Virus record (IMG/VR): IMGVR_UViG_3300042934_001089 | Coordinates: 1 to 44,164 of that record | Reading direction: 5' to 3' (one strand) | DNA: 44,164 bases | Origin: a virus | Shown here: piece by piece, positions 2,830 to 31,484 of the stretch | Layout of the letters: each line of letters starts with the position of its first letter | Numbering within the stretch: the first letter of the stretch is position 1 | The notes under the pieces: generated by a model | Databases searched by the model: none | Told to the model about the DNA's origin: nothing | The model's input: the letters and a program-made list of their open reading frames with translations, nothing else | Position numbers and translations under genes: made by a program

Positions 2830-4226
2830 TGCTCGAACCCCGTCGCAGCACATATGTCCCAACCCTGATCGCGGGAGCGAGTGCGGTCGCCCTTGTTCTC
2901 TTCGGAACGCGGTGGGGCAGCTACATCGGCGTAGCTCCGCTGTTCCTCACCGACATCCTGCTGGGGGCCGCCACGGTCCACTACCTGCTCGGGATGTGGC
3001 GCGCACCGCGACCAGCTCTTGGTATCGCTCGGCTGCCGATCCTAATTCTGGCGTGCTCGGTATGGGTGATCGCACGTTTTGTGCTGGGCGCCAACCTCGG
3101 GTTCGAAGCTATCCGCGACTTCGCGCCTTACCTCTATATCGCCGTCGCGATACTCGGATGGCACGCTGCGATGCGCGCAACGGAAGCAGAGAAGTCGCGC
3201 ACGGTCAAGCTGCTCACATGGGCACTCGCACTGCACGCCGCCTGGTACACCGCCCAGGCGCTAGTGCCCACGCTCCCGCTCCTGCTGCCTCAACTATCAG
3301 CCGCGCAGGACCTCCACGTCTTCTCCCCACGGCCCGACGTCGACTGCGCCCTCATCGGGGTCCTCGCCGGTCTACTTCTCACCCGCGCTCTGGAGGCGCG
3401 CCGATGGCGCTTCCTTAACCTTCTTGGCTTCGCCGCATGCTGGGGAGCCATTCTCTTGTCGATGACTCGCGCAGGCGTGCTGGGAGCGGCAACCGCGACA
3501 GCACTCGCCATCGTGCTCGTGCTCGCAGGCTCGAAGGCTGGCAAGTCACGAAAGCTCGAACTCGTCTCCGTCGCACCACTGATCCTGGTCGCCTTCATCG
3601 CGATCGTCCCCACCACCGACGTTGGGACTAAATTCCTAGCCACGCTTGACCCCAGCCTTGCCGCATCGAGCACCGTCGCCGAAGGGGCAGCGGGAACCAC
3701 TCGCGCTCGCTCGAACGCCTGGGATGCTGTCGCGGAGTGGACGCTCAACGATCCACAGCGCGCGATCGTCGGCGTCGGCTTCGGGCCGAACTTCCTTGTG
3801 GATTCAGGTGCCAGTATCCTCCTCGTCAGCAACGCGGAGGGTGGGGAAGACGTCCCACGGTCTCCTCACAATTTCTGGATCGGGACCTTTGCGCGTCTGG
3901 GCGCTGTCGGCCTCGCTCTCGTCGGGGCCGCGGTCGTCATGGCGCTAGGCCGGACGTGGCGTTCGCGCCGGGTCCTGACTTCGGACCCGCTCGCGCTGCT
4001 CACCGCCCTCATACCTGCCGCGTTGTTGATTCCAGCCACCTTCGGGGTGGTTCTCGAATCACCGTTCGCTGCTGTCCCGTTCTGGTGGTCGATCGGCGTA
4101 TCTCTTGCCCTGTACCAGCGGCGTGCGGGGACGGCCGACTTCGGTCGTGCAATCCCCGCACGCATCAGTCGCGCCCGATCTCAAAGGCCCGTCAGTCGCG
4201 TCGCGACGAGGGCCGCAAGCTCGTAA
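2829..4226 (+). CDS. O-antigen ligase/polymerase-like (Wzy-type) membrane protein
   Basis: A 465-aa protein with roughly ten to twelve membrane segments. Features typical of the Wzy/WaaL ligase fold are SMTRAGVLG (211-219), a soluble loop with a TRARSNAW arginine-tryptophan motif (291-298) and SPHNFWI (345-351). Such enzymes join or polymerise lipid-linked sugars on the outer face of the cytoplasmic membrane. The ATG at 2829 overlaps the previous stop; a start 24 bases earlier is possible. In a phage it would alter host surface glycans during lysogeny. The arginine-rich C-terminus overlaps the convergent tail-fibre gene by 46 bases. Codon use again looks less phage-like than the core genes. 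Confidence 0.75.
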   Translation: MLEPRRSTYVPTLIAGASAVALVLFGTRWGSYIGVAPLFLTDILLGAATVHYLLGMWRAPRPALGIARLPILILACSVWVIARFVLGANLGFEAIRDFAPYLYIAVAILGWHAAMRATEAEKSRTVKLLTWALALHAAWYTAQALVPTLPLLLPQLSAAQDLHVFSPRPDVDCALIGVLAGLLLTRALEARRWRFLNLLGFAACWGAILLSMTRAGVLGAATATALAIVLVLAGSKAGKSRKLELVSVAPLILVAFIAIVPTTDVGTKFLATLDPSLAASSTVAEGAAGTTRARSNAWDAVAEWTLNDPQRAIVGVGFGPNFLVDSGASILLVSNAEGGEDVPRSPHNFWIGTFARLGAVGLALVGAAVVMALGRTWRSRRVLTSDPLALLTALIPAALLIPATFGVVLESPFAAVPFWWSIGVSLALYQRRAGTADFGRAIPARISRARSQRPVSRVATRAASS

Positions 4227-6070
4227 CCGTCCTGCGTCGGATGTAAGCCGTCACTCTGGATGAGCACACCCAACCCTCGCGGATCGCGCAGGTAGGCGTC
4301 GTAGAAGTCGAGGAACCCCCAGCGCTTGACGCCTGCCAGCGCGCGTAGCTCGTCAATTCGACGGACGTGCGCCTGACCGTAAGCGGCTTCGTTCGGCCAT
4401 GCCGAAGTGTGCGGGTTCTGCCCGACAACGGCCACAGACGCGAGCGGCAGCCGGTCCTGGACTGCGGCAACCCAGTCGGCGTACGGCTTAGTCCACTGCG
4501 CGCCGCCGACCTTCGTGACCTCGTTGTGGCTGTCGTCGAAGATCTCAAGCACCTGGCCGTAGTTCGGCGTCTCGAGCTTCAACCGCGTCGCATCCGTGTG
4601 ATAGGTCATGTCGCTGCCCGAACGTGAGGCATTGATGACGGTGAGCGTTGGCGAGCCGCCGATCGTTGTAGCCGAATCTCCGAAGCGCTCCCAAAGTTCC
4701 GGGAGCGCGGGAGCGATGAGGGGCCCGTTGACACCGTCGCGGATCTGAACCTCGTAAATCTTGCCGGGGAAACCGCCGCCGGACGGCTGCCAGTCCTCTG
4801 CGCCAATCTCGAGCTGAGAGACGGTGGTCGCGAACATCGCGGACGCTGCTCCGGAGAACGACTGGGTCGATCCGAGCTGAGTCCATGTCAACGCTGCAGC
4901 GCCGAATGCGCTGTCGACTGCGGTGTAGAACTTGCAGGTCTCAGAGGTGCCCGGAACGATCTCGTTGGTCACTCGGAGCCACATCGGTGAGCCATCGCTG
5001 GGCGGCGTGACGGCTACTGACGACACCCAGTCGGCGTTCCAGCCTGTGCCGTTCTTCGACACCGCAATCCGAAGAAATCCGCTCTGAGAGAGGCGCCACC
5101 TGAACTGGTTGACGGTCGAGTAACCGGATGCCCCGTTCGGGAACTTCCGCGCGATCAGCGTCCGCTCTCCGCCGCTGCCCGGCACCCAGGAGTCAGGTAG
5201 CACCTTCATGCGGAGGTCGAGATTGCCCGTCGTGAACGCCGTCTTGCTCGCGTCCTCGGGGTAGTAGCGAAGTGATCGGGTAGTGGTACGTACGTAGCGG
5301 GGTCCATCGGAACCTGCCTGCAACACGACAGGCGGGCGGAAGTCCTGAGTGGCGTGATCCCACGTCCGGGACTCAACTCGGATGCCTGGATAAGCGGCGG
5401 CAAGCTTCTTGGCGTACCGGGTGACCCATCGAAGATCGGCCGGGTTCGAACCGTCTGAGTCTCCAGTGGAGTCACCACGCCGTCCGAAAGCGACCGATCG
5501 CCCGGCATCGAGCGCAGACCGGAGGGCCCGGAATGCGAGGTCCGTGTCGTCCACCGACGCGGCGATCTGCCCAGCAATGGCAGCGCTTACCGCAGTCGCC
5601 GTCTTGGAGGCCGGGTTCTTGAGCAGGCCCTCGGTGATGGTGTCGTTCGTGTTCCCGACGGCCGCCGCCTCCGCTGCAGCTTCGACGGCGGCAGCCTGCG
5701 CCGCCACCGCGTTCAGCCGAGCGAGTTCCGCCGCCTGCGCGCTGCTGGCCGCGGCACCCGCGTTCCCCGAGGCCATCGCGGCAGCCGCTTCTGCGGCGTT
5801 TGCGTAGACCGACAGCGACGTCATCGGAGTACGGAGCGACCCGGAGACGACGACGATCTGCATCGTCTGGTTTACGACCCGGAACGCCGGGTAGATCCCG
5901 AGGTCCGAGGACCGCAGCTCGGGCATCGGCACGCCCTGCAGGTCGGTGAGCGCGAGCGGCGTGGACAGCGTCGTGTCGGCCAGGGCGTAGACCTGTGCCG
6001 TCGCATTCCTGACGGCGTTGCCGTTGCCGTCTGCGGCGAGCGTCGCCGGGAAGTAGTCGATGATCGCCAC
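4181..6070 (-). CDS. Tail fibre/appendage protein with SGNH hydrolase interrupted by a LamG-like domain
   Basis: A 629-aa protein. Residues 1-90 form a virion-attachment domain, 90-145 an alanine-rich helical stalk, and 190-629 an SGNH/GDSL esterase. Block I is GRRGDSTGD (Ser201). A jelly-roll or LamG-like beta domain of about residues 270-460 is inserted. The later blocks follow: SRSGSDM (about 492), DSHNEV (Asn516) and SDGLHPTQDGY (Asp607, His610). It probably de-esterifies host surface glycan during adsorption. It is the last gene of the late operon and its 3' end overlaps the convergent ligase-like gene. Confidence 0.8.
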   Translation of the reverse strand: MAIIDYFPATLAADGNGNAVRNATAQVYALADTTLSTPLALTDLQGVPMPELRSSDLGIYPAFRVVNQTMQIVVVSGSLRTPMTSLSVYANAAEAAAAMASGNAGAAASSAQAAELARLNAVAAQAAAVEAAAEAAAVGNTNDTITEGLLKNPASKTATAVSAAIAGQIAASVDDTDLAFRALRSALDAGRSVAFGRRGDSTGDSDGSNPADLRWVTRYAKKLAAAYPGIRVESRTWDHATQDFRPPVVLQAGSDGPRYVRTTTRSLRYYPEDASKTAFTTGNLDLRMKVLPDSWVPGSGGERTLIARKFPNGASGYSTVNQFRWRLSQSGFLRIAVSKNGTGWNADWVSSVAVTPPSDGSPMWLRVTNEIVPGTSETCKFYTAVDSAFGAAALTWTQLGSTQSFSGAASAMFATTVSQLEIGAEDWQPSGGGFPGKIYEVQIRDGVNGPLIAPALPELWERFGDSATTIGGSPTLTVINASRSGSDMTYHTDATRLKLETPNYGQVLEIFDDSHNEVTKVGGAQWTKPYADWVAAVQDRLPLASVAVVGQNPHTSAWPNEAAYGQAHVRRIDELRALAGVKRWGFLDFYDAYLRDPRGLGVLIQSDGLHPTQDGYELAALVATRLTGL

Positions 6071-6506: not shown

Positions 6507-7013
6507 TCAGAGAGTGGTGACGGTGTCCTCGACCCCATCGGGCAGGACGTCGGTGATGCGGATCTCGAACAGTGCGGAGTCGGCGCCGGGGTCGAGCGCG
6601 ATCTGCGCCCACTCGACGACCTCGGAGTACGAGATCGAGCCGGTCACTCGCGCCTTGGCTTCGAGGTACTGGATGGCCTTGCGGAGACGGTCGCGTTCGA
6701 GGACCGCCCGCTCAAGGTCGGACTGCAGACCGGGCACGAGCTTGGCGAGGCCCTTGTACGTCTCCGCCTCCGCCGACACGGTGTCGAGCAGGGTCTGATA
6801 GCGGGCGACGTCGTCGTTCGCGCGGTCGAGCAGCCGGAGGATGAGATCGTTCGCGATCTTGTTCGCCTCGTTCGCGTCGGCCGGCGTCCGGTCCTGCCGG
6901 GCGCGACGGTTCTCGCGAGCGACGCGCCACGTGAAGATGCCGGTGATCGTGAGTCCGAGTACCGACAGTCCGCCGAGAAGCATCTGCAGCGCGAACTGCA
7001 GCTCAGGGGTCAC
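6507..7013 (-). CDS. Membrane-anchored coiled-coil protein of the lysis region, 168 aa
   Basis: One N-terminal membrane helix (about residues 8-29), then a basic stretch (RENRRARQDR) and a long predicted coiled coil (about 45-120), ending in a small domain. The basic segment after the helix suggests an N-out anchor with the coil in the cytoplasm. Its start overlaps the upstream membrane-protein gene. It could be a holin regulator or spanin-like partner; no family is recognised. Confidence 0.6.
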   Translation of the reverse strand: MTPELQFALQMLLGGLSVLGLTITGIFTWRVARENRRARQDRTPADANEANKIANDLILRLLDRANDDVARYQTLLDTVSAEAETYKGLAKLVPGLQSDLERAVLERDRLRKAIQYLEAKARVTGSISYSEVVEWAQIALDPGADSALFEIRITDVLPDGVEDTVTTL

Positions 7014-7600
7014 GTGGTTCCTCCGATGGTTCCGGCCAGATGCGCCTCCTTGCGGCGACGGTGAACGACGCTCGCGAGACGCGCGCCGAGCTGAGCGCCC
7101 GCGTAGTACGCGAACACGGTCAGCGCGACTCGATCAGCGCCGGTCGGCAGCGATGCCGACAGGACGGCCTGCGTCACGCAGTACAGGCCGATCCCGACGA
7201 GCATCATGACGATGCCAACCAGCTCGACGCCCAACCCGAACAGCGACCGACGGAGGTCGGCGCGCAGCAGCACCGGGTCGGACTGCGCCTCGCGCGCGGC
7301 GATGACGAGGCCCGTCGACGAGACGATCGCGCCGACCAGGACGAAGGCCGTCATGATCCACACGAGCACCGACCCAAGGGACGCCGCGACGACCGACGGC
7401 GTCAGCAGGAACAGCATGACCGCCCACGCCGCACCCGCCGCCTTCGCATGGAGGTGCGCGACGTCCACCCCGTTGAGCCGCTTGAACGCGTTCAGCACCC
7501 GCCGAGGGGCGAGCACTGCCTGAGCGGCTACGAGGCGGACACGCAGGAGCACAGCACTCGCGAGAGCACGCCTCCGGCGACTCACGCCCCCGTGCGTCAT
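7010..7600 (-). CDS. Four-helix membrane protein of the lysis region, 196 aa
   Basis: A basic N-terminus (SRRRRALA) precedes four hydrophobic stretches, about residues 53-70, 72-101, 120-149 and 155-175. The ATG overlaps the stop of the endolysin gene in an ATGA junction. Multi-span membrane proteins directly after the lysin are common in actinophages and are usually annotated as holin or unknown. Translation coupled to the lysin argues for a role in lysis. Confidence 0.65.
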   Translation of the reverse strand: MTHGGVSRRRRALASAVLLRVRLVAAQAVLAPRRVLNAFKRLNGVDVAHLHAKAAGAAWAVMLFLLTPSVVAASLGSVLVWIMTAFVLVGAIVSSTGLVIAAREAQSDPVLLRADLRRSLFGLGVELVGIVMMLVGIGLYCVTQAVLSASLPTGADRVALTVFAYYAGAQLGARLASVVHRRRKEAHLAGTIGGTT

Positions 7601-8478
7601 GCGGAGGGCTCGGTGCCGATCGCGAGGCGCTCGCGGTCGCGGCGGTCCTCCTCGTCGGCGTTCTTCTTCGCCATGAGTTCGAGCGTCGCGTCGTCGAACT
7701 CGATCTTGGCGGGACGAGACCCGAGGGCGTCGGCGACGGTGCGACCGATCTGCTCCTCGTCGACGTCGACCTGGATGCCGCCGCTCGCGAGCACAGCACG
7801 GACTGCGGCGGCGGTGGCCTGCGCCTGGCGCTCGACCATGAAGTCCGCCGCCTGCCAGGACAGGGCGACGGCCCATTCGGTCGCCCAGTTCATGCCGGCA
7901 GAGTCGGGGTTTTCGAAGCGTGCCTTGAGCGCACGCCACGCGTCGTCGGCCAGCGAGGTCGTGTATCCGTTCGGGAACGCGACGACGTTGGGGGTGATGA
8001 ACAGGGGTCCGGACATTTCTTCCTCCTCGATGGGGGCGGGTGCTTTCACGGCGGTAGCCGACGCGGTGCCGGCGGCGGACTGCCCGAAGTCGATCGGGTA
8101 GCCGAGGATGTCTTCGGTCCAGCCCAGGTAGGGCCGGCCGATCTGTCGCTGACGCTGATCGATCGTGCAGACGCCGATCACGCCGTTGCGGGGCCAGTCG
8201 GTCGCGAGGACCTGACCACCGCCGAGAGAGATCACGACATCACCGGCTGCGCTCGACGGCTTCCTGCCGAACCAGACCGGCACACCGCGAGGCGGATTGC
8301 GGTCGCCGGGATGCTTCCCGCCCGACCCCTCCCACCCTGAGAACGCGGTCGGCGCCGCCTGCGAGGTGCGGGCACCGTTGCGCTTGTACGCCTGCCACAC
8401 CGCCTCGAGGCAGTAGCCCGGGCGCCACGTCCGGGCTGCGACCATCGTCTGGATCGCTGCTTCTCCACTGACTGCCAT
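7597..8478 (-). CDS. Endolysin with CHAP/NlpC-like peptidase domain
   Basis: A 293-aa protein. Residues 10-132 resemble the actinophage lysin peptidase domain: candidate catalytic Cys23 in GYCLEAVWQAY, then PVWFG, then SLGGGQVLATDW and YLGWTEDILGYPI. The position where CHAP enzymes usually carry the catalytic His (GHVAI) reads GDVVI, so Asp80 replaces it or the His is supplied elsewhere. An Ala/Pro linker with a run of four Glu (151-154) leads to a 139-aa C-terminal domain, probably wall-binding. A good internal ribosome site precedes Met155 in frame. It cleaves host peptidoglycan at the end of infection. Confidence 0.75.
   Translation of the reverse strand: MAVSGEAAIQTMVAARTWRPGYCLEAVWQAYKRNGARTSQAAPTAFSGWEGSGGKHPGDRNPPRGVPVWFGRKPSSAAGDVVISLGGGQVLATDWPRNGVIGVCTIDQRQRQIGRPYLGWTEDILGYPIDFGQSAAGTASATAVKAPAPIEEEEMSGPLFITPNVVAFPNGYTTSLADDAWRALKARFENPDSAGMNWATEWAVALSWQAADFMVERQAQATAAAVRAVLASGGIQVDVDEEQIGRTVADALGSRPAKIEFDDATLELMAKKNADEEDRRDRERLAIGTEPSA
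8014..8028 (-). promoter_or_regulatory. Internal ribosome-binding site and start inside the endolysin gene
   Basis: On the minus strand GAGGAGGAAGAA is followed directly by ATG (8016-8014), codon 155 of the endolysin. It would give a separate 139-aa C-terminal protein (7597-8016). Several phage endolysins are known to make such a free wall-binding subunit. The same bases also encode the Glu-rich linker, so coincidence is possible. Confidence 0.5.
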
Positions 8479-8487
8479 GAGTCCTCC

Positions 8488-9405
8488 TCAGTAGCCGATC
8501 GCTGTCCACAGGAACGAGCGCACCCACGGGTTGCTGCTGCCCGGATACATCACGCGGAAACCTGCGCGGGACACGCCGTCGACTCCGGGCGCGATGGGTG
8601 GAGTGAGCGGCGAGGCGATCCCCGCGAAGACGGGCAGTACCGACACCGAGAGGATGCCGTTGGGGAACGCCTGCTCGAAGACGATCGAGGGCATGTACTC
8701 GTTGCCGTAAAGGCTCGTGGTGCCGGCGGTGAGCATGCCGGTCTTGATCTGCAAGCCTTGGACCGCGAGCACGCCGCTGGGAACGTCGATGCCTGGGAGG
8801 GTTGCGCCCGGATTGCCGTTATGTCGTGTCTCCGCACCGGTCACCGCCCAGGACGGTGTCCCCAGCGAGTCCAACACTCGGGACCACTCCCGTCCGCCGA
8901 TGCGAACGCGCGTGCCGAGCCGATTGAGGTACTGCAGCACAAGCTCGTCCGTCGCGAACGCGCCACCGTCGCCTCCCCAGACCCGCAGGTCGATCAGCTC
9001 GCGCACCTGCGAGAAGCCCGCCTGCACCCGTGCGAGCCACAGGGGCTGATCGTCCAGCTCGGCGAACGTGGTCTCGCGCGTCGGGATCTCTTTCGCCGAT
9101 GAGCCTTGCACGACGTGGAAGGCGGAGACGTTCTCGTCCCAATCGCGCCGCATCGTGATCAGGTCCCAGCGGGAGCCGGCCGCGACGGGCGCCAGGGTGA
9201 CGGACTCCTCGGCGTCGGACGCGTCCCGGATGCCGTAGCCGAAGCCGCGGCCGGGCGAGAGCCGCACCTCACGGTCGGCGGCACCGATGGTCGCCCGCCA
9301 GGACGCCGGGTCGAGGACGCCGTACTGGCGCCCACCGGCCAGCGACAGCAGATCGGACCACTGCGGCTCGTTGACGGAGCCGTCGTACCCTGCGCTGGTG
9401 ATCAT
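8488..9405 (-). CDS. Minor tail protein with gp53-like C-terminal domain
   Basis: A 305-aa protein. The N-terminal half (to about residue 150) resembles baseplate/fibre base proteins of actinophages (DLLSLAGGRQYGVLDPASW). The C-terminal 100 residues match the gp53-like tail-fibre fold, with AFPNGILSVSV, AGFRVMYPG and a terminal SFLWTAIGY. These domains form trimeric receptor-binding tips. The start lies 2 bases after the Gp37-like gene in the operon. It probably contacts the host surface together with the SGNH fibre. Confidence 0.75.
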   Translation of the reverse strand: MITSAGYDGSVNEPQWSDLLSLAGGRQYGVLDPASWRATIGAADREVRLSPGRGFGYGIRDASDAEESVTLAPVAAGSRWDLITMRRDWDENVSAFHVVQGSSAKEIPTRETTFAELDDQPLWLARVQAGFSQVRELIDLRVWGGDGGAFATDELVLQYLNRLGTRVRIGGREWSRVLDSLGTPSWAVTGAETRHNGNPGATLPGIDVPSGVLAVQGLQIKTGMLTAGTTSLYGNEYMPSIVFEQAFPNGILSVSVLPVFAGIASPLTPPIAPGVDGVSRAGFRVMYPGSSNPWVRSFLWTAIGY

Positions 9406-27378: not shown

Positions 27379-28038
27379 TCACGTGTAGACCTGCCCGCAG
27401 AGGGTGCACTTCGCGACCCGCTTCCCCTCGGTCGAGAGCGGCTCGTCGACGAACGTCACGACGACCTCCCCGGTGAGGCAGAGCCGGCAGATGTCCGGCT
27501 CCCGCGTGCGACGACGAGGCGTGCCGCCGAGGTACCGGTTCCGGAGCTGTCGGATCATCGCGAACAGGAAGCTCTCGCTGTCCTCGAGCTGCTCGAGCGG
27601 GGCGATCCACTGCACCCGCTCGACGAGCCACGCGACGATCGCGAACGAGTCCCGGCGGACGTCGGCGCCGAGGCGGATGCCCTGCGCCTCGCCTCGGGCC
27701 CGCCACCGGCTGACGACCGGTAGGGGTGCGAGGATCAGCGGCGCGTGACGCTGCAACAGATCGTCGACGTTCTCGGCGTACTGCACGAGCGCCGCCCACA
27801 GCTCGTCGGCACCGTCGAGCACTTCCGCACTGAACGGGAGAGGTGCGCCGTCGCGGGACGAGCTGACTCGCTCGGCACCGTACCGGCGGGAGTCGGACGA
27901 GATCCGGGGCACCTCGTCGCGCATGAACTCGAGCAGTCCCGGCACGAGGTCCAGGTGCCACGAGTACCGCTCGATCCAGCGACGCCACTGCTCGTCGGGG
28001 GTGAGCGTCGGCGCGTCTAGTGCGAATGCCTCGGTCAT
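27379..28038 (-). CDS. Actinophage protein with C-terminal zinc ribbon, 219 aa
   Basis: A helical N-terminal domain of about 175 residues is followed by a C-terminal ribbon: ICRLC near residue 190 and CTLCGQVYT at the end. The ATG overlaps the stop of the methyltransferase gene. The family resembles unnamed actinophage proteins encoded beside small HTH proteins; function is unknown. Confidence 0.6.
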   Translation of the reverse strand: MTEAFALDAPTLTPDEQWRRWIERYSWHLDLVPGLLEFMRDEVPRISSDSRRYGAERVSSSRDGAPLPFSAEVLDGADELWAALVQYAENVDDLLQRHAPLILAPLPVVSRWRARGEAQGIRLGADVRRDSFAIVAWLVERVQWIAPLEQLEDSESFLFAMIRQLRNRYLGGTPRRRTREPDICRLCLTGEVVVTFVDEPLSTEGKRVAKCTLCGQVYT

Positions 28039-29795
28039 GCGACCAGCTCGTATCCGAGGGACTCGACGCACGCGGCGATGATGTCGCGGGCGGGTGGCGG
28101 GGTGACCGCGTTACCGGCCATTCGGACCTGCTCTCTCTTGTTGCCGAGGAGGACGTACCCCTCGGGGAACGCCATGCCGTGCTTGATCTCGACGGGCTCG
28201 AGCATCCGGAACTCGGCGTCGTGCACCATCTGCCAGAGCACGTCGTCGGACAGCGCGGGCGCTGGCTCCGGCATGCTCGTCGGCTCAACGAGTGACTGGT
28301 GGCCGGCCGTGGTGAGGGTGCGCAACGGCTCGGTGACGGGCGTCGACATCTGCCCCTGATCGCCGCGCGCGGTGTTGTTCCGCATCACGAGCGCGTGATG
28401 GTTGCCGGATGCCGCGACCGTGTCGATCGGCTCCGCGGCGGTCTTCGCAACGCCGTGGTTCCGCAGTGGAACGACGAGTGCGTCTCGGTCGATCGTCGTC
28501 ACAGTGCCCATCGGCTGATCGACCGTGCGTGCGACGCCCGTCGAGAAGTACGGGACGAGCATCGCGGCGTGGTTGCCTCCCGCCACGAGTGAGGGCAGGG
28601 GCTCCGAGAGCTTCGTCGACCGCGACGTGTCCGCGCCGGAGACGTTGTTCACGATGAGCGGTGGCGTCGCGAGGAACTGCGACCCGGCCGCGGTGATCGA
28701 CCCGATCGGCGTCTCGACGGTCTTCGCCGGCACGGTGTTGCCCTCACCCCTGACGACGAGCGCCTTCGACGACGTCGTGTGCAGCGTGCGCAGCGGCTCG
28801 GTCGCCGGCCATGCGCGGTGATACGCGTCCGGGTCGCCGTGCTGCGGATGCTGCGGCGACGCGGCGTCGTACGTGTTGCCCGCGGCCTCGACGATCATCG
28901 GGAGCCAGTGGCGGCGGGCTCCGGCAAACGTGCGGAGCATCGTCTTCGGAGCGAGCTCCGGCATGCCGAGCTTCTTCCGGTCGCCGATGCGGACGCCGCG
29001 GATCGACCAGTCGATGATCGTCTCGGCGCCGAGCAGCGCGGGGAAGATCTCCGCGTTCCGGCAGGACTTGTGCGGGCACCGCAGCGTGTACTGCGTGCCG
29101 TACATCTTCATCGCCGAGCCGCCCGGCTTGAACACCTGGACCGACTTGACGAGCCCGTGCTCGGGGCACTCGGCGAGCGGCCGGAGCCACTTATCGAAGT
29201 CGGGCCGACGGTTCCCGGCCCGCCAGAAGACGACGTACACGCGGTCGCGGGACTGCGCGGCCGGGAGCCCGTAGCCCTGCGCGTGCATGCTGTTCATCCA
29301 GACGACCTCGTGGAGGTAGCCGAGGTCGTGCATGCTGCGGAGCCACTGCTCCCACTGCACGCCCTTGACCACGCGAGGGACGTTCTCGACGATCACGATG
29401 TCGTAGAGGTGGTGAGCGGAGAACCGGGGAACGTCCCACATGCCCATCCGGGACCGGTCCGCGGCCTCGTTCGGGAGGCTGTCGCCGAAGAAGTCCCACG
29501 CGAGCTGCCCGTCGGGGAGCTTCTCGCCGCGGGCCGACGACCAGTAGGTGCACTCGGGACTGAACCATCCGATCGTCGTCCGCGGGTAGCGGCTCGGGTC
29601 GGCCTTGTTGATATCGGCTTTGTCGTGGTCGGTGTCGGGGTGGTTCGTGTTGTGGGTCTCGATCGCGAGGTCCCAGTGGTTGACGGCCATCGTGACGCGC
29701 ACGCCGGGGACCATCGTCGCGCCGGTCGACGAGCCGCCCGCGCCGCAGTAGTAGTCCGACATCGTGATGTCGCTCGTTCCGGGCCGCGGGGTCAC
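28035..29795 (-). CDS. C5-cytosine DNA methyltransferase with internal repeat block
   Basis: A 586-aa protein. SAM motif I is YCGAGGSSTG (16-25); catalytic Cys82 sits in FSPECTYWS, a variant of PCQ; ENVPR is at 137-141; QSRDRVYVV at 181-189; motif X GNAVTP at 561-566. A zinc knuckle is possible around C240 and C245. Between 330 and 505 a unit of the type EPLxTxTTxGxxALV recurs about six times every 28 residues or so and forms the likely target-recognition region. The GTG start overlaps the ASCH gene and has GGAGG upstream. It probably protects phage DNA from host restriction. Confidence 0.9.
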   Translation of the reverse strand: MTPRPGTSDITMSDYYCGAGGSSTGATMVPGVRVTMAVNHWDLAIETHNTNHPDTDHDKADINKADPSRYPRTTIGWFSPECTYWSSARGEKLPDGQLAWDFFGDSLPNEAADRSRMGMWDVPRFSAHHLYDIVIVENVPRVVKGVQWEQWLRSMHDLGYLHEVVWMNSMHAQGYGLPAAQSRDRVYVVFWRAGNRRPDFDKWLRPLAECPEHGLVKSVQVFKPGGSAMKMYGTQYTLRCPHKSCRNAEIFPALLGAETIIDWSIRGVRIGDRKKLGMPELAPKTMLRTFAGARRHWLPMIVEAAGNTYDAASPQHPQHGDPDAYHRAWPATEPLRTLHTTSSKALVVRGEGNTVPAKTVETPIGSITAAGSQFLATPPLIVNNVSGADTSRSTKLSEPLPSLVAGGNHAAMLVPYFSTGVARTVDQPMGTVTTIDRDALVVPLRNHGVAKTAAEPIDTVAASGNHHALVMRNNTARGDQGQMSTPVTEPLRTLTTAGHQSLVEPTSMPEPAPALSDDVLWQMVHDAEFRMLEPVEIKHGMAFPEGYVLLGNKREQVRMAGNAVTPPPARDIIAACVESLGYELVA

Positions 29796-30253
29796 GCCGG
29801 CACCTCCGCACGGCGGGCGGCATCCGCGAGCGACTCGTCGACGCGACGCAGTCCGAGTCCGCCCCGGAAGACGATCGGTTCCCGGAGCGCGCGAGGTGCG
29901 GCGAGGGTGAGGTGCCAGCCCTCGGCCTCGGCCCACTGGGAGCAGCCGCCGCGGTCCTCGCCGAAGCCGGAGCACTCGTCCGCGTGGTGCGATTCGAGCA
30001 TCTCGACGATCCCGAGGATCGCCCCGCGGACCTTCATGCTGTCGCGCGCAGTGGCGGGCGCCGCGTCGACGGCGGTCCGGAAGCGGTCGGCGTTCCAGAT
30101 GGGGTCGGTGTCGTCGACGGCGGTCAGTCCGGCGTGGACGAGGACGGGTCCGCGGTAGGTGCCGGCGATGTTCCGGCTGCGGTTCTCGACGTCCTTCCCG
30201 CCGAAGATGATCGCCCATGCCCAGGGCTGGCGGACGGTGAGGATGCGCATCAT
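29792..30253 (-). CDS. ASCH-domain protein, 153 aa
   Basis: Begins MMRILTVRQPWAWAIIFGGK and continues DVENRSRN, the diagnostic start of the ASCH fold. Later motifs are YRGPVLVHAG and GAILGIVEMLE. ASCH proteins bind RNA or modified nucleobases; some are N4-acetylcytidine amidohydrolases. It is coupled to the methyltransferase gene, suggesting a link with modified DNA or nucleotides, which is inference. Confidence 0.85.
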   Translation of the reverse strand: MMRILTVRQPWAWAIIFGGKDVENRSRNIAGTYRGPVLVHAGLTAVDDTDPIWNADRFRTAVDAAPATARDSMKVRGAILGIVEMLESHHADECSGFGEDRGGCSQWAEAEGWHLTLAAPRALREPIVFRGGLGLRRVDESLADAARRAEVPA

Positions 30254-30687
30254 CGACCGCCCGTCAGGTGGGCCTCGTACTGCAGCGCCGCGGTGGCGCG
30301 GAGGGCGAGAGCGTCGACGAGATCCGACTGCGCGCCGCGCTCGCGGACGGCGTCCATCACGGCGAAGATGCCCGGGAAGTCCTCGTTCATCGTGAGGCGG
30401 ACGATCACCGCGAGGTCATGCTCGACCTGCGGGAGGGCGGGGTCCTCGATCGGGGCGTAGGTGACCTTCGAGCCGAAGATGGCGGTCGCCTGACGTAGGA
30501 ATCGCATCCCGGTCTCGGACCCGATCGACGCGAGCGCGATCGCGAGCGAGTTCCACGCGAGGTCGGTGTCGTCGACGTGGTTCTCGATCCAGGAGAGCAG
30601 CCGGTCGCGGTCTCCCATCGTCAGCACCGCGCCGAGGCCGGCGAGGCAGGATGCGGGCCACGGTGCCGTGGCGCAGTAGTCGGTCAT
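30250..30687 (-). CDS. Helical hypothetical protein, 145 aa
   Basis: A nearly all-helical protein starting MTDYCATAPWPASCLAGLGA and ending LALRATAALQYEAHLTGGR. It overlaps both neighbours by 4 bases, so it is co-translated with the MmcB-like and ASCH genes. No domain is recognised. Confidence 0.55.
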   Translation of the reverse strand: MTDYCATAPWPASCLAGLGAVLTMGDRDRLLSWIENHVDDTDLAWNSLAIALASIGSETGMRFLRQATAIFGSKVTYAPIEDPALPQVEHDLAVIVRLTMNEDFPGIFAVMDAVRERGAQSDLVDALALRATAALQYEAHLTGGR

Positions 30688-31484
30688 GCGTTGTCCCTGA
30701 CTTTCTCGATGGCCTCTGCCGCCTCGGCGAGGCGGGTCTGTGCGTGCTGGACATCCCAGAAGCGCGTCGCGATCGCACGCTGCACGTCCTTGTCGGCCGC
30801 GAGCCAGCGGGCGAACGAAGCCCGGATCTCGTCGACCGTGACCGCGCCGTCGTCCCATCGGCTCTCGGCGACGGAGAGACCGAGGATCTCCTCGAGCTGA
30901 TCGAGGGTGGACCGCAGACGATCGCGCTCGCGCTGCAGCCGCTCGTCACCTGTCTGCGCCGCCACCCCCGCGGCGACGCGCTCCTCGATGTCGCGGTACA
31001 GGCGCTCCGTCGTGGCCGTGCGGTCCTTCGTGATGGCGTCGATCCGGAGGCTGTCGGCGCGCTGCACGAGCGCGTGCGTCGCTTCCCACGACGGCGCCCG
31101 CTCGGGGTGCACCGCCGCCTTGACGACGATCTCCATGCGCGTCTTCGAGCGACCGAGGATCATCAGCCCCCATCCCTCGGGAAGTTCCTCCGGGCGGACG
31201 ATCGACGCGTCCGGGGCGACGACATACCAGGCGTGACAGTTCGGTTCCCACGCCTCCGCCTTTTCGGGCTGGTCCAGCTCGTGCAGCCAGTCGGCGCGCG
31301 ACACCTTGATTTCGTGCCCGACGAGGTGCCGGCCGCGGGACTGGAAGAACCCGACGTAGAGGGCGTCGGCCCGGCGGGAGCCGAGCGTGACCTCAGGCAT
31401 GAAGATGCCGCCGGCCATGAGTTCGCCGGGCTTGATGTAGTGCCGCTGCAGTCGAGCGAGCAATTCCTTCGCGGTGACGTTCAC
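30684..31484 (-). CDS. MmcB-like (PD-(D/E)XK fold) protein with coiled-coil tail
   Basis: A 266-aa protein. The N-terminal 130 residues contain RADALYVGF and the core GHEIKVSRADWLHEL, followed by CHAWYVVAP, matching MmcB-type DNA-repair proteins of the PD-(D/E)XK nuclease superfamily (E-x-K in strand 3). The rest is a long coiled coil (about 165-265). The GTG start has GGAGG eight bases upstream. It likely acts in DNA metabolism or repair. Confidence 0.7.
   Translation of the reverse strand: MNVTAKELLARLQRHYIKPGELMAGGIFMPEVTLGSRRADALYVGFFQSRGRHLVGHEIKVSRADWLHELDQPEKAEAWEPNCHAWYVVAPDASIVRPEELPEGWGLMILGRSKTRMEIVVKAAVHPERAPSWEATHALVQRADSLRIDAITKDRTATTERLYRDIEERVAAGVAAQTGDERLQRERDRLRSTLDQLEEILGLSVAESRWDDGAVTVDEIRASFARWLAADKDVQRAIATRFWDVQHAQTRLAEAAEAIEKVRDNA

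Follow-up and report, generated by a model that had tools for sequence, protein, structure and literature searches.

Within a window of 44,164 nucleotides (nt), namely positions 1 to 44,164 of IMG/VR virus record IMGVR_UViG_3300042934_001089, a single endolysin gene on the minus strand (7597–8478) is likely to encode two proteins, forming a two-polypeptide endolysin of the kind described previously (Pinto et al., 2022). Ribosomes starting at 8478 would produce a lysin of 293 amino acids (aa), consisting of an NlpC/P60-like domain, a disordered linker and a C-terminal module, and ribosomes starting independently at the ATG at 8016, directed by GAGGAGGAAGAA, would produce the 139-aa C-terminal module alone. 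The free 139-aa copies would then probably assemble with the full-length chain and thereby supply further wall-binding sites, as in LysIME-EF1, CTP1L and LysP7951. The signal for an internal start at Met155 is confirmed in the window gene and the start is supported by comparison with relatives; its use is very likely, and binding of the module to the wall with assembly of both products is moderately probable. For use of the start, wall binding and assembly alike, we infer from LysIME-EF1, CTP1L and LysP7951. The signal recurs across many C-terminal modules, in split and fused genes and behind different catalytic domains. The features of the gene are the following:

7597–8478, minus strand: endolysin gene, an open reading frame (ORF) with a full-length product of 293 aa.
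8083–8478, minus strand: catalytic domain, residues 1–132, with a predicted NlpC/P60- and CHAP-like fold (model and structure matches).
8017–8082, minus strand: linker, residues 133–154, with a Glu run at its end; predicted local distance difference test score (pLDDT) <50 over residues 137–159.
8017–8028, minus strand: GAGGAGGAAGAA, internal Shine-Dalgarno sequence with AGGAGG at 8022–8027 and a 5-nt spacer (sequence, pairing and equivalent sites in relatives).
8014–8016, minus strand: internal start codon ATG, Met155 (sequence, translation and relatives).
7597–8016, minus strand: predicted free C-terminal product of 139 aa, ~15 kDa (translation only).

Read on the minus strand, GAGGAGGAAGAA spans 8028–8017 and is followed directly by the ATG at 8016–8014, in frame with the ORF 8478–7597; AGGAGG (8027–8022) is separated from the ATG by 5 nt, and translation from 8016 gives 139 aa, the first Met being residue 155 of 293. 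The motif directly before an in-frame ATG and the 139-aa subunit beginning at Met155 were both claimed in the original prediction, as was a start at the border between linker and domain, and the structural model agrees with the latter, placing Met155 in the disordered linker (137–159, pLDDT <50) just before the C-terminal part. Pairing with the tail of 16S ribosomal RNA amounts to −11.6 kcal/mol at the internal start and −10.9 kcal/mol at the endolysin's own start, and local mRNA folding to −8.4 and −17.3 kcal/mol, respectively. Pairing of ≤−9 is reached by 5/245 internal in-frame ATG, GTG or TTG codons in 16 minus-strand ORFs of the window, two of which (28035–30218 and 30250–30858) may not be genes, and the Met155 codon is the only ATG among these five; pairing of ≤−11.5 is reached by 5/826 ATGs in any frame on both strands of the window. 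An in-frame GTG at 29795 (minus strand), inside the ORF 28035–30218, pairs more strongly (−13.1 kcal/mol).

For comparison, ORFs with the catalytic domain were drawn from a phage collection (representatives, not all records), from IMG/VR, from one scan of genome contigs (7 loci) and from 366 genomes of Microbacterium, the genus of L057, 11 of which matched at E 1e-10. After 26 near-duplicates had been folded in, L056 with its partial catalytic domain having been dropped beforehand, 61 distinct ORFs were obtained, comprising 56 with a C-terminal tail of at least 50 aa, four that end after the catalytic domain and one that is cut by a contig end. In L002, two neighboring ORFs (3998–4525 and 4599–5054) carry the same type of catalytic domain, and the second, which runs off the contig end, was excluded from the 56. 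The best border pairing averages −8.86 in the 56 relatives, compared with −3.23 in 111 control windows within the catalytic domain and −3.34 in 103 control windows within the C-terminal part, some of them <40 codons long (Mann-Whitney, p 6e-18 and 2e-16, respectively). Values of ≤−8.5, a cut-off chosen after a listing of sites had been seen, occur at 36/56 borders (including L084, later discounted) and in 12/214 control windows. Under a lenient rule (≤−4.5), 50/56 relatives have a border start, a count that falls to 48/56 when L058 and L084 are discounted by eye, their starts lying 31–34 residues into the tail with no Shine-Dalgarno core at the proper distance; L006 was retained among the 48 at −4.7 with no core scored. 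L003, L012 and L046 have a border ATG with weaker pairing (−3.3 to −3.5), and the remaining five of the 56 are without a border start (L009, L011, L058, L074 and L084). A LysM domain is present in L011 (E 5e-7), and PG_binding_1 is matched by L074 at E 8e-5 and by L058 at E 5e-4, the latter below the curated cut-off; these three relatives lacking the site were counted in favor of the two-protein reading. For L009 and L084, the domain search returned no wall-binding domain.

Once made, the free C-terminal product could fail to join the lysin and act alone, for example by coating the wall to time lysis or to spare neighboring cells, which we regard as unlikely. A role of this type is reportedly proposed, in the title of the CD16/50L paper, for the wall-binding domain of that lysin, said to preserve uninfected cells. 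In the passages of PMC9430671 that were covered, association of the chains is absent for LysJavan488 and inconclusive for LysPollywog, which would also suit a product acting by itself. However, the only lysins for which these passages describe association have a single catalytic domain, a single wall-binding domain and the start in between, and the window gene has this layout, with one catalytic and one C-terminal domain on either side of the start, which argues for assembly.

In Min1, Edmundo/LiSara and Waltz (the latter two belonging to Laroyevirus) and in contig L045, a separate gene encodes the C-terminal protein; it begins 10–17 nt past the stop codon of the catalytic gene and has its own Shine-Dalgarno sequence. 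Homology of these separate proteins to fused modules was found for Edmundo (E 6e-5), Waltz (1e-6) and L045 (2e-10) in a 54-sequence set, and phrog_15044 is common to the fused module of Gina and the separate protein of Edmundo, whereas the separate protein of Min1 gave no match to a fused module. Since separate-gene versions exist in the family, fusion or fission has happened. The same existence of separate genes could mean that the internal signal is a relic, left over when two independent genes became fused and by now neither in use nor under selection, and the modest synonymous-codon signal described below would fit this too. The 54 modules (50 fused, 4 separate, with L058 and L084 still included) form 21 groups (phmmer, 1e-3), distant relatedness between groups being possible; the border start is kept in 18/21 groups and in 48/56 fused genes, 35 of the 48 at ≤−8.5, and 14/21 groups have a fused member at ≤−8.5 when L084 is left out. 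A relic should decay in diverged lineages, yet the signal is retained across these groups and the motif outlasts even a Glu-to-Lys change in L077 (AAGGAGG), making this explanation improbable. Among the ORFs compared, the split pair of catalytic and C-terminal genes in Laroyevirus phages is seen at L078 (2462–3311), L081 and L083. Another Laroye gene (82, 299 aa) is given as the endolysin in the part of a survey that was covered (PMC5513430), and Laroyevirus phages with the split pair may have two lysins.

Modules related to those of Gina, Kumotta and Pointis are also found behind Peptidase_M23 (Margaery, Liebe, Berrie, Elesar and Hestia), and a related module behind Amidase_2 (DrRobert). An internal start is present at the border in 6/6 of these M23 and Amidase_2 genes (−6.0 to −14.8), which were picked by hand from the listed part of 143 matching records. 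The modules suggestively follow host groups. At least part of the Kumotta module occurs in 109 records, all 109 from phages of Arthrobacter sp. ATCC 21022, and at least part of the Pointis module in 23 records, all 23 from phages of A. globiformis, while the Gina module was traced to M. paraoxydans in 9 records and to M. foliorum in 2. By contrast, the catalytic domain of Pointis spans hosts, with records from phages of Arthrobacter (27), Rhizobium (2) and Lactococcus (2). A tentative proposal, to which we give slightly less than an even chance, is that phages of Microbacterium and Arthrobacter exchange a cassette combining the ribosome-binding site with a host-specific C-terminal subunit, which would be swapped beneath unrelated catalytic domains and pass between split and fused forms. 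Independent translation would then be the conserved state and fusion a secondary tether, and the subunit encoded in the window would represent an undescribed wall-binding family.

Among the 45 sites with a scorable core, 27 read xAG-GAG (Glu, Gln or Lys, then Glu) and 18 read GGA-G (Gly, then often Gly or Asp), and the spacing is 4–10 nt in 44/48 scored sites (L058 is included in these phase and spacing counts). As the residues vary across two codon phases while the DNA motif stays, the conservation appears to lie at the nucleotide rather than the protein level. Start codons other than ATG stand at the border in seven genes, GTG in five and TTG in two; in five TTG-start genes (the two relatives and three with other catalytic domains), 5/6 TTG codons, among 95 Leu codons, are located at the site. 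According to the original prediction, relatives that keep the Glu run and lack the ATG would have spoken against an internal start. Acidic runs of at least three residues within the first 45 tail residues number 22 in 60 complete ORFs; ATG, GTG or TTG follows within three codons after 19 of them (two of these, in L003 and L012, with weak pairing), and the other three are located past the start, within the C-terminal module. That the acidic or glycine stretch is selected as a protein linker, with the Shine-Dalgarno appearance as a by-product of GAG and GGA codons, is very improbable: Glu and Asp do precede many starts and 38% of synonymous shuffles of the window gene give an equal site, but Glu-type and Gly-type residues alternate over a constant motif and spacing, start codons accompany the acidic runs, and TTG, which makes up ~7% of Leu codons, occupies the site in five genes, an argument to be read with caution since only start codons entered the search for sites.

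Several points weigh against two products being made from the window gene, or against the wider pattern. The motif is easily formed in this gene because of its four Glu codons, and since so many synonymous shuffles match the site (p 0.38), the window alone is not decisive between a selected start and a Glu run. Over the 56 genes, the excess over synonymous shuffles is modest (−8.86 vs. −6.93; combined p 2.7e-4 for related, non-independent genes, with 10/56 at p ≤0.05), pairing is weak (−4.7 to −6.1) at several of the 48 border sites, and the search for starts was confined to ATG, GTG and TTG. Two other lysins, LysP008 and Lysc2, have predicted internal starts and gave no two polypeptides in expression tests, according to the passages of PMC9371310 that were covered. 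Tracking of hosts by the modules is only suggestive, because the matches are mostly partial (80% module coverage in 4/109 records for Kumotta and 3/23 for Pointis) and because it may reflect the few isolation hosts used. Finally, the window module reaches no known wall-binding family in the Pfam search, and the Met155 site is uncheckable within this module, as no relative beyond an identical contig was found.

The 139-aa product matches no Pfam family at the curated cut-off, the matches to Amidohydro_3 and TPR_TTI1_C lying far below it and being discarded. The phage collection holds no relative of the module at E 0.01, and IMG/VR returned the identical contig only, in a search with patterns that reach close relatives only and with bacterial genomes not searched. 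Kinship with the Mercedes group was considered and not accepted (profile probability 2.2, E 0.021 over 42 columns), and the BLAST match to the Mercedes module (25.6% over 90 aa, E 4e-4 in the 54-sequence set, no composition correction) is too weak. In the full-length model, the C-terminal part is of low confidence, with a short strand pair and long helices; when the module is modeled alone, the mean pLDDT is 51.8 and the fold is not resolved, and no fold search was made from it. A second PDB comparison is uninformative on the C-terminal fold, its listed rows spanning residues 1–131 only. The original prediction stands in part: the relatives support the internal start, and the searches for family, relatives and fold (pLDDT ~52) yield nothing that identifies the module as wall-binding, a role on which the host tracking of other such modules bears indirectly.

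The catalytic domain is modeled with pLDDT 95–98 (blocks of ten) and has a predicted papain-like NlpC/P60 fold. It matches NlpC/P60 and CHAP structures (Foldseek, VIA) with a best Z of 12.0, reaching Z 11.8 against Lys2972 and Z 10.7 against the LysIME-EF1 chain 6ist_C, and a sequence search of the PDB with the catalytic profile gave 0 matches at E 1. Cys23, at the start of helix 23–32 in the model, is invariant in 61/61 ORFs. Asp80 (8239–8241), at the start of strand 80–86, occupies what we take to be the position of the usual catalytic His, as assigned from the alignment and known motifs rather than from a superposed active site; across the 61 ORFs this position holds His in 32 and Asp in 29, the window included. 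Because Asp80 stands in place of the His, the domain is called NlpC/P60-like and not a member of the family. His56 is present in 55/61 ORFs, and the catalytic base may be relocated or unusual.

The endolysin is matched by phrog_12298 at residues 18–128, and residues 1–132 match genes of Microbacterium phages that are mostly annotated as lysin A or endolysin, the best phage match being Mercedes gene 22 (81.5% over residues 4–133), annotated as hypothetical. Judged by the lysin alone, the host is presumably Microbacterium. The gene adjoins tail genes (tape measure, minor tail and tail fiber) and precedes two membrane-protein-like genes, where a lysis cassette is commonly found:

7010–7600, minus strand: next gene, probably a lysis-cassette membrane protein (phrog_2344, unknown function; hydrophobic sequence).
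6507–7013, minus strand: further downstream gene, possibly holin-like by inference (N-terminal hydrophobic stretch; phrog_14455, unknown function).

The first of these is judged to be a membrane protein because its sequence is hydrophobic and because, in phage Mercedes, an annotated membrane protein follows the gene that matches the window endolysin. Its ATG overlaps the endolysin stop codon as ATGA (7597–7600), which suggests translational coupling of the two genes. In the gene before the endolysin (8488–9405), the N-terminal part is lectin-like (phrog_1910) and a gp53-like tail fiber C-terminus is matched weakly, below the cut-off. The structural region (9000–33000) shows hardly any DNA similarity to known phages; its best matches, to Gordonia and Mycobacterium phages, lie in the portal gene and cover ~1% of 24 kb.

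If two products are indeed made, genes annotated as lysin A in Microbacterium and Arthrobacter phages would in many cases encode two proteins each; the second product is listed in none of the annotated regions retrieved. The C-terminal modules, mostly of unnamed families that seem to follow the host, would be candidate host-specific wall binders, and the occurrence of split and fused forms within one family would provide natural comparisons with which to ask why phages retain a free subunit.

In PlyC, the catalytic and wall-binding subunits are separate proteins. This resembles the split gene pairs found in Min1 and in Laroyevirus phages, whereas most members of the present family are fused with an internal start. 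With NlpC/P60 and CHAP peptidoglycan hydrolases, the window lysin shares the predicted fold (Z ≤12.0) and the invariant Cys23, but it has Asp80 instead of their usual catalytic His. Of 3,780 endolysins from phages infecting Gram-positive bacteria and mycobacteria, 1,946 were predicted to be two-polypeptide endolysins encoded by a single gene, according to the passages covered of Pinto et al. (2022; PMC9430671), in the main text of which the word Microbacterium is absent. Like these, the window gene is a single gene in which a catalytic domain is followed by a C-terminal domain, with an in-frame start and a strong ribosome-binding site at the domain border that recur in relatives; unlike these, its C-terminal part matches no known wall-binding family and its two products are predicted only, and the lysins tested there, in the passages covered, come from other hosts than that of the window phage. 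The literature passages covered (which include PMC7302621, PMC5513430, PMC8758107, PMC9224216, PMC9030533 and PMC9671378) do not mention internal starts for lysins from phages of Microbacterium or Arthrobacter, and the supplement of PMC9430671 may list some. In the passages covered, LysIME-EF1 (PMC7098653) and Lys170 (named in PMC9430671) have the same layout, combining a full-length chain with free C-terminal wall-binding copies from an internal start; complex and activity were measured there, and the C-terminal domain of the window lysin was not matched to those of LysIME-EF1 and Lys170. Likewise, in CTP1L, CD27L and CS74L (PMC4777826, passages covered) an internal start frees a wall-binding domain that joins the full-length enzyme, as proposed here; these lysins are from clostridial phages and underwent structure and activity tests. 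The two-polypeptide arrangement is thus already known from other phages, and what the present comparison of sequences would add is a family-wide pattern, with split and fused forms, a signal that appears to move with the module across catalytic domains, and a set of uncharacterized modules.
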